64,000 bases of DNA from a virus. Below, one piece after another: positions 16,112 to 56,339 of this stretch. Each line of letters begins with the position of its first letter. Position 1 is the stretch's first letter. The stretch spans positions 16,158-80,157 of IMG/VR virus record IMGVR_UViG_3300031566_005149; one strand, written 5' to 3'. The notes under the pieces are model-generated. The model did no database searches, was not told where the DNA came from, and saw nothing but the letters and a program-made list of their open reading frames with translations. Both the position numbers and the translations under genes were made by a program.

Positions 16112-16324
16112 CTATAAAAGTTTATTAATCAAATAAGGGCATCTTTGCCATTTAACAAAACTATCTCCCAAATTAAGTATATCAAATTCTAATTTTTCAC
16201 AACATTTACCACATCTATTACAAGGAATTTCACAAGATGGAAATAATAAAAGATTTATTACTTTTGGGAATTCTTTACATATTTCAGGTCTTTTATCATA
16301 GATTGAACATTTATATATTATCAT
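16112..16324 (-). CDS. CxxCxxCC-type zinc/iron protein (YkgJ-like), apparently permuted
   Basis: 70 residues with CSIYDKRPEICKEFP near the N-terminus and CNRCGKCC in the middle, ending WQRCPYL. These are the three signature pieces of the YkgJ-like cysteine cluster family, which binds a metal, but the usual order has CxxCGxCC first. It ends in TAG. It starts next to the stop of the serine-rich tail gene, so it may be co-translated. Role unknown. Confidence 0.6.
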   Translation of the reverse strand: MIIYKCSIYDKRPEICKEFPKVINLLLFPSCEIPCNRCGKCCEKLEFDILNLGDSFVKWQRCPYLINKLL

Positions 16325-16325
16325 G

Positions 16326-18344
16326 CTAAATTGAGCTTGAGCTTGAGCTCGTTGATGAAGAACTTACCGAACTCGAACTCAATGAGCTTGAACTGAATGA
16401 GAAACTCAATGAGCTTGAACTCGTTGACGAACTCGATGAGCTTGAACTGGTTGATGAACTCGATGAGCTTGAACTGGAAGAAGTAGAACTGGATGAACTA
16501 CTTGAGCTGACCGATGAACTAGAACTCGAAGAACTGGATGAACCGGTCACATCCTCAATTATAATGACACATAAATCCTGACCGGCCACACAATCGAATG
16601 TTCCACCATAATCATAATCAGCCATACCACCAGTTTGAATGTGAACATAATTCACATTCGTATTCGAAGTTTCATCTGTGAATGGTGTTATATCACCACT
16701 AACTTCGATATTATCAATTATGATTCCAGCATTGGTTGCATCATATGGAATACACATAAGACCGTCTGTAATTTCATCTTCTATTTGAAATTGCATTTCC
16801 ACCGGAATATCAGATACAATTCCAAGATCAAAATATGATCCACAATCATATGTGTCTCTCTGATAGTAAATATTTGTAGAAGTAGAATCAGAATCAATAC
16901 ATATCGTTTGGACATCAGTACTATCTATATTCAGAGCACAGCAAGGTATCCCATCAGCGGTTGCATAATCATACACCTTATGTTCAATTTCAATTGTTCC
17001 TAAAACATCTTCTAAAACAAGACTATTAAAAAGTCTGTTTCTAAATTGAAGTGCTTCAAAGAGAATGAATCTTGCTCGATACGGTTTAAAGAAATTAACA
17101 ACAGGTTTCAGATCTTTAAAGAATGCAGATAGACCATCAACCATATAGGCAAAGTTTATAAAACCAAACCCAATATTATTTCTAACCCATATTGATAAAT
17201 CATTGATTAGAGAACTTAAAACATCTATTGGGAAATCAGTCGTTAAAAGATCATCTATATCTGTTTTTAAAGTTGGGTCCAATACAGATAATATATTTTT
17301 TGCGTCTGTTAGATTTTGTAAAAAGTTTGATGGTTGAATTCTAGTGTATTGATCGTAGTAAGCGTCCAATCTAATAAGAATTCCTTCTCTCGTTTTCGGT
17401 TGGCTGGTTAAAGATTCATAATCCGATTTAATTTGTACGAAGTTTGTGTCTGTTCCGTCATAACATAAAAATAAATCTCCATCAACTCCTGTTGGGAAAT
17501 AGGTATTGAACACATATAATACACCAAGATATAAACCCAAGAGAGAAGATATTCCAGCGGTTGTTCGTATTTCCGCGTTCTGTGGTAATGTCCCCCCTCC
17601 GGAATATACCTCATATTGATCTTGAATTCGTCTGCTTAATATTGCAGATTCTGGACCCTCAGTATCGATTACAGGTCTAATACCAATATAAGGAGCCTTC
17701 GAGGGGAGATTGATTTTTTCTATATTATGAAGTGCTAAGATTTGTGCTTCCGTATATAACCAATGTGGGTCTGAATCAGTAAACTCTGGATATTCAACAT
17801 TTAAAACTCCAGGATTAACAGTTGTTCCAGCAATGGCATTACCACGAAATATTAAAGAAGTGTTACTTTCCAATCTCAGAAAAAATTCAAATATGTCAAC
17901 TTCAGCTAATCCATAATACTGAAGAACATCGACTAATGCTTGAGGAGTTCCTTTAACTTTATAAAGGTTAACAAGATCAAGCATGAGAGCAACTTTAGTT
18001 GATAGTGGGTTTTCATCATAGTCTCGAAGAGTTACAGAATAATTATATCCAAAACTTCTAAATAATTCATCGAGATCCGAATTGCTCATTGAATATGGAT
18101 CTGAGAGTGTGGATGTTGTTTTAACAACGGTTTTATGAGCAGAATATAAATCAACGAGAAATTTTCTAAGTCTTTTATAATCAGCTGTGTTATAAGATAA
18201 CTGATCGATAACATTACCAAAATATATATCTGAACGAGCGTCCTGATCTTTGGCTTCGGCATTTAAGGTGTCGGTGAGGCTACTTGGATTTGCGCCGTTT
18301 GCCGATCTTAAAATATCCCAGAATATATCTATATTAAAAGACAA
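16326..18344 (-). CDS. Baseplate/tail protein with serine-rich C-terminal tract
   Basis: 672 residues. The N-terminal 150 include VALMLDLVNLYKVKGTPQAL followed by VLQYYGL, which resembles the P2 gpI-type tail protein that links baseplate to fibres. A long mixed region follows. The last 75 residues or so are almost pure Ser with occasional Thr, Val or Leu, a probable flexible linker or glycosylation target. It ends in TAG. It is the first gene of a fibre-type group. Confidence 0.65.
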   Translation of the reverse strand: MSFNIDIFWDILRSANGANPSSLTDTLNAEAKDQDARSDIYFGNVIDQLSYNTADYKRLRKFLVDLYSAHKTVVKTTSTLSDPYSMSNSDLDELFRSFGYNYSVTLRDYDENPLSTKVALMLDLVNLYKVKGTPQALVDVLQYYGLAEVDIFEFFLRLESNTSLIFRGNAIAGTTVNPGVLNVEYPEFTDSDPHWLYTEAQILALHNIEKINLPSKAPYIGIRPVIDTEGPESAILSRRIQDQYEVYSGGGTLPQNAEIRTTAGISSLLGLYLGVLYVFNTYFPTGVDGDLFLCYDGTDTNFVQIKSDYESLTSQPKTREGILIRLDAYYDQYTRIQPSNFLQNLTDAKNILSVLDPTLKTDIDDLLTTDFPIDVLSSLINDLSIWVRNNIGFGFINFAYMVDGLSAFFKDLKPVVNFFKPYRARFILFEALQFRNRLFNSLVLEDVLGTIEIEHKVYDYATADGIPCCALNIDSTDVQTICIDSDSTSTNIYYQRDTYDCGSYFDLGIVSDIPVEMQFQIEDEITDGLMCIPYDATNAGIIIDNIEVSGDITPFTDETSNTNVNYVHIQTGGMADYDYGGTFDCVAGQDLCVIIIEDVTGSSSSSSSSSSVSSSSSSSSTSSSSSSSSSSTSSSSSSSSTSSSSLSFSFSSSSLSSSSVSSSSTSSSSSSI

Positions 18345-21591: not shown

Positions 21592-22617
21592 CTAAAAATA
21601 TGGATCATCTAACTCCTCAGAAGACATATTAACAGTTTTGATTTCTATCTCACATTCATCACAATCCTCTGATGTTACTCCGGTTACTGTAATTTCTCCA
21701 GGTGGGTCAGCATACTTTTCAGCCATTGCTGGACCGGAAGGACCACCACCACCACCTTGATTACATATAGGACATTCATCAACAATATACGTTTTAGTTA
21801 TAGAATCCTCAGTCAATCCAGAATCGCGTACAATCAATTTAATCGTGAAAGTATCTAAGAATGGAAATGCATAATAAAAATCTATTTCTCCAACATCTTC
21901 CAATACTGCCAGGAGATTTCCAATACTATCTCTAACTTCCCATCTACTGTATATAATAGGTGGAAATGTTGTTGATGATGTATTTATGTATTTATAATTG
22001 AATAGTAAAGAATCACAATCTGGTAATTTCTCTCTTTCGAAATCAGCTTGAATTTCTGTTGTGCTTGATGAACTCGAACTGGTCGAAGAGCTGGATGAAC
22101 TGGAGCTAGACGAGATCGAACTACTTGATAAACTAGAACTCGAACTACTTGATAAACTAGAACTCGAACTGATCGAAGAACTGCTGGATGAACTTGAGCT
22201 GCTGCTACTGCTGGACAAACTCGATGAGCTACTTGAGCTCGATGAACTCGAACTCGAACTCGTTGATGATGAGCTGGAGCTGGAGCTGGAACTTGTTGAT
22301 GATGAACTGGAACTGGAACTCGTTGATGAAGAACTTACCGAACTGGAACTTGATGAACTTGAGCTGGAGCTTGACAGGCTTGATGAACTAGATGAGCTCG
22401 AAGAACTTACTGAACTGGAGCTTGATGAACTTGAGCTGGAGCTTGACAGGCTTGATGAACTAGATGAGCTCGAAGAACTTACTGAACTGGAGCTTGACGA
22501 CGAAGACCCCTCGACCCAATTAACAATTAAGTCACCCGCTCTATATGGAGTAGCACATTCATCACATGAATCTACTTGTGAAAAATATGGTACTCCAAAT
22601 GGATTAGCTCCAAACAT
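21592..22617 (-). CDS. Serine-rich virion protein with PKD-like domain
   Basis: 341 residues. A short N-terminal part with CDECATPYRAG, then about 150 residues of nearly pure Ser, then a beta-sandwich of PKD type (WEVRDSIGN, YYAFPFLDTFTIKLIVRD, TKTYIV), and a Cys-containing tail with GGGGG. It resembles extended tail-fibre or decoration proteins with a stalk. It ends in TAG. The Ser tract is encoded by a mix of AGC/AGT/TCA/TCG-type codons in higher-order repeats. Confidence 0.65.
   Translation of the reverse strand: MFGANPFGVPYFSQVDSCDECATPYRAGDLIVNWVEGSSSSSSSSVSSSSSSSSSSLSSSSSSSSSSSSVSSSSSSSSSSLSSSSSSSSSSSSVSSSSTSSSSSSSSTSSSSSSSSSSTSSSSSSSSSSSSSSLSSSSSSSSSSSSSSISSSSSLSSSSSSSLSSSSISSSSSSSSSSTSSSSSSTTEIQADFEREKLPDCDSLLFNYKYINTSSTTFPPIIYSRWEVRDSIGNLLAVLEDVGEIDFYYAFPFLDTFTIKLIVRDSGLTEDSITKTYIVDECPICNQGGGGGPSGPAMAEKYADPPGEITVTGVTSEDCDECEIEIKTVNMSSEELDDPYF
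22325..22512 (-). repeat. 72-bp tandem repeat in the serine tract
   Basis: Two nearly identical 72-bp units and a partial third (about 22325-22396, 22397-22468, 22469 on) encode the Ser run. The repeat is long enough for recombination-driven length change. Confidence 0.75.
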
Positions 22618-24611: not shown

Positions 24612-25229
24612 TTATGATTTAATAATTCTAAACTGAATATATCTGTCATTTGTATTGTGTGCTACTATATAATCGTCCCATGCTGGTAATATATCGTCTT
24701 GATTGAACGGTATTTGTGAGTGTCTTAGTTGTATTGTTGCATAGCATTGCCCATCCTCATATACATCTTCTCTCATTGTAATTATTCTTGGAAATATCGA
24801 ACCGAGATTATAAACAGCACTCCGACCCTCTTCACCACATTCCAATTGTAATTGACCCCAGTCTTGATCACCGATAATGGTTGGGATAAATGCAGTTCCA
24901 TCACTCCAAGTTTGCCAAGAAACTGGATCTTCATCTACAGGATTTTGCTCGCCGAATGCCCAAGCTCCAGCCGAAGCTGTACTTGAAGAACTTGAGCTGG
25001 TTGAGGAACTCGAACTCGAAGAACTAGTGGAACTTGACGAGCTACTACTCGATGAACTTAGGCTCGATGAACTGATTGAAGATGAACTGGAACTGATTGA
25101 AGATGAACTGGAACTGATTGAAGATGAACTGGAACTGATTGAAGATGAACTGGGCTCCCACTCCAATGGTTCTGAGGCGACCCACTCACCATCTTCAAAT
25201 ACCCATTGCATATCAGTTATTTGTGCCAT
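24612..25229 (-). CDS. Short serine-rich virion protein
   Basis: 205 residues. Residues 1-26 hold a Trp-rich head (WVFEDGEWVASEPLEWEP), followed by about 60 Ser with periodic Ile, Leu or Thr, then a compact beta-rich C-terminal domain ending QFRIIKS. The architecture head-Ser stalk-tip is shared with the two other Ser-rich proteins. Confidence 0.6.
   Translation of the reverse strand: MAQITDMQWVFEDGEWVASEPLEWEPSSSSISSSSSSISSSSSSISSSSSSISSSSLSSSSSSSSSSTSSSSSSSSTSSSSSSTASAGAWAFGEQNPVDEDPVSWQTWSDGTAFIPTIIGDQDWGQLQLECGEEGRSAVYNLGSIFPRIITMREDVYEDGQCYATIQLRHSQIPFNQDDILPAWDDYIVAHNTNDRYIQFRIIKS
25070..25153 (-). repeat. Four tandem copies of a 21-bp unit in the serine tract
   Basis: The plus strand reads GAACTGATTGAAGATGAACTG four times in a row, encoding a heptad of Ser with one Ile. 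Copies are essentially identical. Confidence 0.85.
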
Positions 25230-42112: not shown

Positions 42113-42196
42113 GCCACCGTCCCTCAGCGGTTGAGAGGACCGGATTTGTAATCCGGTGGATAATATCCCACGTAGGTTCGAATCCTACCGGTGGCT
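42113..42196 (+). tRNA. tRNA with anticodon UGU (Thr codon ACA), long variable arm
   Basis: A full cloverleaf: acceptor GCCACCG/CGGTGGC, D stem CCTC/GAGG, anticodon stem CCGGA/TCCGG around TTTGTAA (anticodon TGT), T stem GTAGG/CCTAC with loop TTCGAAT. The variable region is 15 nt with its own GGAT/ATCC stem, which is class II. Thr tRNAs are class I. G1-C72, C2-G71 and G35-U36 agree with Thr identity. No CCA is encoded. Confidence 0.85.
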
Positions 42197-42234
42197 CTAT
42201 CCTTAATTAAATCAATAAGTTAGGAGAAACAACA

Positions 42235-51723: not shown

Positions 51724-51726
51724 TTG

Positions 51727-52290
51727 ATGAAAGAGTTGCCACCAAAGTTTGACATGTTGGGTCAATTCAAAATTAAAAAAGATGATACAATATTCGACGC
51801 GTCCTGCACTCCAGCTGTAATCATGTTCAACCCAAAATATCCTCATAATGTTGGTGCAGCTGTCAGAGCATGTTCATGCTTTGGAGTTAACCATTTAGTA
51901 TTTACCGGTGATAGATTATTGGATGAGTTGGGTGAGCAAAGTAAGAAAGGATATCGTCTACCAAGAGAAGAAAGGATGAAAGGTTATAAAGACGTTAATA
52001 TCTATAACGATCAATATCCTTTTAATAGATTCTCTAAAGATGTAACTCCTGTTGCTGTTGAAGTTCGAAATAACTCACAGCCCCTGCCAAATTTTCGTCA
52101 TCCAAGAAATCCAGTATATGTATTTGGTCCAGAAGACGGATCTTTACCTCAGATATATTTGAAGCATTGCCATATGTTTGTAATTATACCGTCAAAGCAT
52201 TGCTTGAATTTAGCTGCCGCTGTAAATATTGTATTATATGATAGAGTTGCAAAATCAAATTACACTTCTAGTGATTATATGAAAATTTAA
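51727..52290 (+). CDS. SpoU/TrmH-type RNA 2'-O-methyltransferase
   Basis: 187 residues. The SPOUT knot motifs are present: HNVGAAVRACSCFGVNHLVF, YVFGPEDGSLP, and IPSKHCLNLAAAVNIVLYDR. Such enzymes methylate tRNA or rRNA riboses; here it may modify tRNA. ATG 51727 follows AAAAAAGGAG. Placed in a group of translation-related phage genes. Confidence 0.85.
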   Translation: MKELPPKFDMLGQFKIKKDDTIFDASCTPAVIMFNPKYPHNVGAAVRACSCFGVNHLVFTGDRLLDELGEQSKKGYRLPREERMKGYKDVNIYNDQYPFNRFSKDVTPVAVEVRNNSQPLPNFRHPRNPVYVFGPEDGSLPQIYLKHCHMFVIIPSKHCLNLAAAVNIVLYDRVAKSNYTSSDYMKI

Positions 52291-55489: not shown

Positions 55490-55544
55490 TGAGATCAATA
55501 CGCAAAAATAAACCACTTTAATGAATCAAACGGAGGAAACAAAC

Positions 55545-55943
55545 ATGACTGAAATAACTTACACTAAAGATCAACGAAAAGTATTTAAGGAACTGAAGAT
55601 GAAGATTAAGGCTGAACTAAACAATTTGGTGATGAGCATTCGCCTCGGTAAGCCTTTGAGAAAACCGTGTGTGTACAATATATCCATTGAAGAACACAAA
55701 ATAATGTTTGGGGGTTTAGACCACAATCGGGTTACATATAGACATGCACATATTGCATATTGCATGTTCTTCAACCGTACGCCATATGCAATGATCGAGC
55801 ATCCAAGAAAAAATAACAAACCATCGTCCTACATGATCGAAGACTATCAAAAGAATTGGGAAAATCAATTAAATGATGCTATTAGTATGATAGCGGCAGT
55901 GGAAAGTGAAGAAGATGAAGAAGCGATTGTGGAGGCTGCATAA
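55545..55943 (+). CDS. 132-residue protein upstream of the amber unit
   Basis: ATG 55545 after GGAGG. Helical with a central Tyr/His-rich region (HNRVTYRHAHIAYCMFFNR) and an acidic end. Its last codons hold GGAGG, the ribosome site for the Pth2-like gene. Unknown function. Confidence 0.6.
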   Translation: MTEITYTKDQRKVFKELKMKIKAELNNLVMSIRLGKPLRKPCVYNISIEEHKIMFGGLDHNRVTYRHAHIAYCMFFNRTPYAMIEHPRKNNKPSSYMIEDYQKNWENQLNDAISMIAAVESEEDEEAIVEAA

Positions 55944-55944
55944 C

Positions 55945-56256
55945 ATGAACCCAAAACCAACGTAGGACAAACTATTCGTAATCATACGAAAAGATCTATC
56001 CCACTCTCAGAGAGCTGTTCAAGCTGGCCATGTGTTAGCAGAGTATATGATACACAGCTCTCTGGAAGGCTGGCAAAATACAACCCTTGTATATCTAGGA
56101 GTTAAGGGGTTGAAACAATTGGAAAATCTAAAATTCAAATTGGAATGTGAAGGTATCCAGTTCGTCGAGTTTAAGGAACCTGATATAGGCTACGAAACGA
56201 CAGCTATAGCCAGTGATGTTGATTGCGAGATCTTTTCTAAAATGAATCTCATATAA
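55945..56256 (+). CDS. Pth2-like peptidyl-tRNA hydrolase with in-frame amber codon
   Basis: ATG 55945 lies 9 nt after GGAGG and one base after the previous stop. Codons 1-6 (MNPKPT) are followed by TAG (55963), then an open frame of 96 codons. This encodes a Pth2-type domain from its first strand: DKLFVIIRKDLSHSQRAVQA, then GHVLAEYM, NTTLVYLGVKG, FVEFKEPDIGYETTAIA. There is no ATG, GTG or TTG between TAG and residue 30, and starting later would lose strand 1 and helix 1. So making the full protein seems to require reading UAG as an amino acid. A recent inactivating mutation is the alternative. Confidence 0.8.
55963..55965 (+). other. In-frame TAG, codon 7 of the Pth2-like gene
   Basis: Flanked by ACG and GAC in the same open frame. 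It sits between a canonical start and the conserved domain, 300 bp before an anticodon-CUA tRNA. Confidence 0.85.
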
Positions 56257-56264
56257 AATGGTGT

Positions 56265-56339
56265 GGGCCAGTAGCTCAGTGGTAGAGCGGGAGACTCTAA
56301 ATCTCTTGGTCGAGAGTTCAAAACTCTCTTGGCCCGCCA
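56265..56339 (+). tRNA. Amber suppressor tRNA, anticodon CUA
   Basis: A complete class I cloverleaf with encoded CCA: acceptor GGGCCAG/TTGGCCC, D stem GCTC/GAGC with GG in the loop, anticodon stem GGAGA/TCTCT around CTCTAAA (U33, anticodon CTA, A37), T stem GAGAG/CTCTC with loop TTCAAAA, discriminator G. It reads UAG. The amino acid cannot be assigned; G73 and U35 would suit glutamine, G1-C72 less so. Confidence 0.95.

Follow-up and report, generated by a model that had tools for sequence, protein, structure and literature searches.

A Pth2-like gene interrupted by an amber codon beside a tRNA-CUA gene

We analysed a stretch of 64,000 nucleotides (hereafter the window; IMG/VR IMGVR_UViG_3300031566_005149, positions 16,158 to 80,157) of an 80-kb virus record that carries a contractile-tail sheath gene. 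On its forward strand, the ORF list places a conserved hypothetical gene of 140 aa (55521..55943), separated by 1 nt from the ATG that opens the gene studied here; this upstream gene has a 40% identical relative in locus L025 and no match in a Pfam search. Read directly, a Shine-Dalgarno motif GGAGG (55931..55935) stands 9 nt before the ATG, which opens a leader of six codons (MNPKPT, ATG plus five codons, 55945..55962), followed by an in-frame amber codon (55963..55965), here called the gate, and then by a purine (TAG G). The frame after the TAG begins DKLFVIIRKDLSHSQRAVQAGH... and stays open to a TAA at 56254-56256; it encodes a Pth2-fold domain (55966..56256 with the stop; detected by Pfam, profile and AlphaFold2) that can be reached only through the TAG. 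Indeed, the first in-frame ATG, GTG or TTG past the TAG is the GTG at 56032, and a start there would yield a protein without strand 1 and most of helix 1, lacking also the invariant R and D. The leader MNPKPT has no homology to the N-terminus of the window's nearest relatives, which start at the position of the TAG. Downstream, on the same strand, lies a complete tRNA gene with an encoded CCA (56265..56339), identified by ARAGORN and by Rfam (RF00005, 67.7 bits, E 2.6e-14), whose anticodon CTA (CUA, 56297..56299) is that of an amber suppressor.

An earlier note on this DNA, made from the letters alone, had described this start with its ribosome site, the six codons, the TAG, the open frame without a usable start after the TAG and the complete tRNA with anticodon CUA. 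Each of these features was found again, the only correction being the gap between the gene stop and the tRNA, which measures 8 nt and not 9. The observation is thus confirmed, and the architecture is beyond chance because it recurs in dozens of divergent phages (see below). Elsewhere in the window, a SpoU-type RNA methyltransferase gene (51724-52290, Pfam 67.7 bits) precedes the module by a few kb, and tRNA-Thr(TGT) (42113-42197) is the sole other tRNA gene. Three proteins encoded on the reverse strand (16326-18344, 21592-22617 and 24612-25229) contain long runs of serine (SSSSS...) and are probably structural.

The protein family has a Pth2 fold and an altered catalytic position

The assignment of the domain to the Pth2 type, also made in the earlier note, is weak for the window sequence alone, which scores 15.4 bits against Pfam PTH2 (PF01981), below the 23-bit cut-off, but appears firm at the level of the family. 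Among the 79 aligned members, 68 match PTH2 at E 0.01, and the family profile detects the Pth2 of M. jannaschii (2zv3) at E 2e-9. The PDB entries that best match the AlphaFold2 model (pLDDT 95), from rank 1 to rank 13, are of the Pth2 type. PHROG 1866, a group whose function is not known, is matched by 79/79 members. A scan of genome contigs with one clade as query turned up just three relatives among 84,980 species, which suggests a family specific to phages. A nucleotide search of phages with the window region returned matches to the tRNA only.

The family shares its fold and detectable sequence homology with the Pth2 proteins of archaea and eukaryotes (2zv3, 3erj, 1xty, 1q7s). It differs from them by a pattern of residues invariant in the 79 members (R8, Q19, H22, E71 and T79), by a near-invariant EPD motif, by a shortened loop, and by the replacement of the catalytic lysine, which we take to be K18 of S. 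solfataricus. The aligned position holds Q in 45 members, Y in 18, A in 6, T in 3, V in 2, D in 2 and S in 1; the lysine is replaced in at least 77 of the 79. Because of this replacement, catalysis is unproven, and the hydrolase activity that the earlier note had attributed to the protein cannot be assumed from its sequence.

The gate recurs in isolated phages

The same architecture is present in isolated phages, so the gate is not an assembly error. It reads ATG ACG CAC TAG in Serratia phage BF and Erwinia phage SNUABM_19, ATG ACT TAG in Acinetobacter phage ME3, ATG AAA TAG in Tenacibaculum phage pT24, ATG GCA CAA TAG in Cronobacter phage GAP32 and Pectobacterium phage CBB, and ATG CTG TAG in Salmonella phage Arash; Xanthomonas phage XbC2 carries it too. 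All eight have a tRNA-CUA in the same region. In the database records the gated gene either carries no annotation, as in BF and SNUABM_19, or is shortened to a start further on; the gate explains such truncated or missing genes. Two phages with suppressor tRNAs deviate from the predicted pattern: in Summit (CUA), where a TAG gate was predicted, no Pth2-like gene was found, and Atu_ph07 (UCA) has only divergent Pth2-like genes without the predicted TGA gate, from which it follows that suppressor tRNAs have other uses too. RaK2 and Hallingskeid have neither a gate nor a suppressor among their tRNAs examined.

The closest relatives of the window differ in this respect. In the locus at 70% identity (L008), a tRNA-CUA lies immediately 3' of the Pth2-like gene, and in the loci L009-L016 it lies at most 0.8 kb away; in most of these nine loci the gene opens with a plain ATG. 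This holds for the five nearest (L008, L009, L010, L011 and L012), which have no TAG and retain the adjacent or nearby tRNA-CUA; in the nearest relatives the gene starts at the place of the window's TAG and overlaps the upstream gene. Taken alone, these close relatives would suggest a private mutation in the window. Since these five loci retain the tRNA-CUA without the TAG, the gate is gained and lost.

Stop type and anticodon agree across the family

We surveyed the family by combining two profile scans of viral contigs with the earlier loci and phage records, which gave 196 loci with the domain; limiting identity to 80% left 126 representatives. A strict gate was defined as an ATG, 1-13 codons, an in-frame stop and the domain, with no ATG, GTG or TTG between stop and domain; ten further representatives with start codons both before and after the stop were excluded. 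Seventy of the 126 representatives carry a strict gate (65 TAG, 3 TGA and 2 TAA), which is codon 3 in 39 of them, and in all 70 the ATG and the domain share one reading frame, without frameshift. A Shine-Dalgarno-like motif precedes only 37 of the 70. Outside the sample, the gate was also found on a Phycisphaerales MAG contig, where a tRNA-CUA lies about 0.1 kb away.

In every gated locus with a suppressor within its 10 kb, the anticodon matches the stop: TAG with CUA in 50/50, TGA with UCA in 3/3 and TAA with UUA in 2/2. The chance of such agreement in 55/55 under random labels is about 3e-8 if relatedness is ignored. On a tree to which extra TGA/UCA loci (L130, L086) were added, there are 7 changes of stop type and 7 of anticodon, which are concordant; the tree is short and poorly resolved, and on its supported branches the two agree in 3/3 independent pairs. 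Stops inside the domain match the anticodon as well (10 TAG in CUA loci, 1 TGA in a UCA locus). Four divergent phages (L020, L021, L036 and L111) have an in-frame TAG at the same residue index of the domain, 33.

A suppressor tRNA was found in 93 of the 126 loci, on the strand of the gene in 93/93 and at a median distance of 527 nt; it is the tRNA nearest to the gene in 32 of 49 loci, where 10 would be expected. In fifteen TAG-gated representatives no suppressor was seen in the 10-kb locus; for 4 of these a suppressor lies on another part of the contig, the others being fragments or contigs not examined in full. The presence of the gate does not correlate with that of a suppressor in the locus on 3 supported independent pairs. 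The acceptor stems and discriminators of the suppressor tRNAs vary, and with them the amino-acid identities predicted from tRNA features; thus decoding, rather than one fixed residue, would be conserved. The gating stop is followed by a purine in 69/70 cases, compared with 27/61 where TAG is a natural stop in the window genome, ME3, pT24 and BF, T following in 32/61 of the latter; first codon positions favour purines anyway, so we take this bias as supporting evidence only.

Related arrangements were seen at the margins of the family. In some loci the Pth2-like domain is joined to an HD-like one (HDxGK motif), with the HD first in L030, L028, L019, L160 and L182 and last in L031 and L023; in L182 a TAG stands ahead of each domain. 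Five HD-like/Pth2 fusions, including those of XacN1 and RAS14, have an ATG, 0-3 further codons and a TAG at the end of the HD, and in three of the five another ATG follows shortly past the TAG. In Bxz1-like mycobacteriophages (HyRo, L244, 4456-4480; Phabba, L245) a TAG directly precedes the GTG start of the Pth2-like gene, and ARAGORN reports a tRNA-CUA just downstream which the records do not label as a suppressor; about 193 mycobacteriophage records match.

Alternative explanations

The best explanation, which we hold to be very probable, is that the gene is nonsense-gated and served by its own dedicated suppressor tRNA. That an amber mutation, or an error of sequencing, simply broke the gene in the window would fit a single metagenome contig whose nearest relatives have no TAG. 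The architecture, however, is shared by at least eight isolated phages and by dozens of contigs, the suppressor anticodon fits the stop type, and dN/dS indicates that the gated genes are under purifying selection (median 0.125 among relatives, 0.04-0.15 among the closest, about 0.1 among gated relatives). The isolates and the dN/dS lead us to reject a pseudogene or an error at the level of the family, and we give this reading almost no credence. Nearly as improbable is a global reassignment of the kind of code 15, in which TAG would be a plain sense codon throughout the gated phages. Suppressor tRNAs do exist, a few loci have internal TAGs, and the code-15 Lak phages have a relative of the gene (L032, L033; about 0.6 kb from a tRNA with the ochre anticodon UUA). 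Against it, TAG ends ORFs of at least 150 aa normally in the window genome (12/60), ME3 (10/145), pT24 (17/177) and BF (6/260); opening TAG gains a median coding density of 0.065, about the same as TGA (0.06), unlike the Lak phages used as positive control (0.30-0.44); and the TAGs are concentrated at codon 3 of a single gene. The Pth2-like gene is the only credible gated ORF in pT24 and in the window genome. In ME3 the overlap filter left no gated candidate, probably masking the gene behind its own truncated ORF, and BF has a second, weak candidate at NC_041917.1 329991-330269. We rejected global TAG recoding on the comparison with Lak. Backup stops, which would be a sign of active suppression, are not enriched after TAG-ended genes (within 5 codons in 34%, versus 47% for TAA).

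The stop could also end a leader peptide or the upstream gene, the domain being made by non-canonical re-initiation or frameshifting and without readthrough. The sister phages of the window, which start the gene exactly at the TAG position and overlap the upstream gene, speak for this, as do the mycobacteriophages with a TAG directly before a GTG start; but the 70 gated representatives offer no ATG, GTG or TTG between stop and domain, and the stop/anticodon match, the matching internal stops and the purine after the stop would be left unexplained, which makes this reading improbable, if less so than the previous two. A last alternative accepts the gating step of the best explanation and differs in purpose alone: the protein would harm the host, or do harm if made early, and the gate would act as a timing or safety lock that delays its synthesis until the suppressor tRNA has accumulated, with no feedback. 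It accommodates every sequence fact equally well, nothing specific speaks against it, and a role in the timing of lytic genes has been proposed for the recoding of stop codons in other phages. We regard it as a serious possibility, though one short of an even chance.

A proposed gating mechanism

As far as genome sequences can establish it, the nonsense-gated gene has a gate that recurs, a stop that matches the anticodon, a tRNA close by, purifying selection past the gate and no global recoding around it; readthrough during infection, the identity of the inserted amino acid and the purpose are what we infer. The claim of the earlier note that the tRNA product gates its neighbour gene is in this way strongly supported, 70/126 representatives being gated with a stop type that matches the anticodon. 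Ribosomes would start at the ATG and normally terminate a few codons on, at the gating stop. The Pth2-fold protein would be made only when the phage suppressor tRNA, presumably charged by a host synthetase, outcompetes the release factor (RF1 or RF2) at the gate. Its amount would thereby be tied to the phage's own suppression activity, and the inserted amino acid would vary with the tRNA. The ATG-NNN-stop front end may both produce a peptidyl-tRNA substrate and sense suppression.

As to purpose, we tentatively propose homeostasis as the likeliest, though at less than an even chance: under high suppression, or when stops and short frames shed peptidyl-tRNA, the protein would be made and would clear or bind those tRNAs. 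The feedback supposed in the earlier note, in which the hydrolase could recycle tRNA released by premature termination, is likewise a conjecture. A self-limiting circuit seems somewhat unlikely; there, the Pth2-like protein would act on the suppressor's peptidyl- or aminoacyl-tRNA or on the dipeptidyl-tRNA of the minigene, so that suppression would limit itself and stop and anticodon would co-evolve as a locked pair. For the suppressor tRNAs that many phages carry to no known end, the module provides a concrete target, conserved among many huge phages and probably present in XacN1; it would also represent a gene switch occurring in nature, in which a stop codon is paired with the suppressor tRNA that reads it.

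Comparison with known systems

An early in-frame stop in a translation-related gene is also known from prfB, which encodes RF2 and is autoregulated by an in-frame UGA near its start that senses termination efficiency through a +1 frameshift. Unlike the gated Pth2-like gene, which stays in frame, prfB frameshifts and uses no suppressor tRNA. For phage lambda, the comparison with pth involves the rap allele of that gene. The two-codon frames of the lambda bar minigenes shed peptidyl-tRNA, the substrate of Pth, and are toxic without Pth (PMC8012679). The codon-3 stops of the gated genes have the same two-codon form, whereas here the minigene forms the first codons of the Pth2-like gene and could be read through. 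An amber codon and a suppressor tRNA likewise control a gene in a synthetic feedforward loop (PMC7969014), which is engineered, while the phage module is natural. In phages with code 15 or other stop reassignments (crAss-like, Lak and jumbo phages; PMC9523058, PMC13037316), a phage suppressor tRNA reads a stop as sense, as proposed here; in the phages described here, TAG is a normal stop genome-wide, one gene is gated N-terminally, and three stop/anticodon pairs occur within one gene family. The XacN1 and Summit papers sought targets of the suppressor tRNAs and found none (PMC5852040, PMC9022506). The earlier note had supposed the module undescribed, and we found no description of it in the open-access literature, subscription journals and preprints being mostly out of reach. 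Suppression of stops by phage tRNAs is already known; the apparent novelty lies in the module, one gene with its matching suppressor tRNA.
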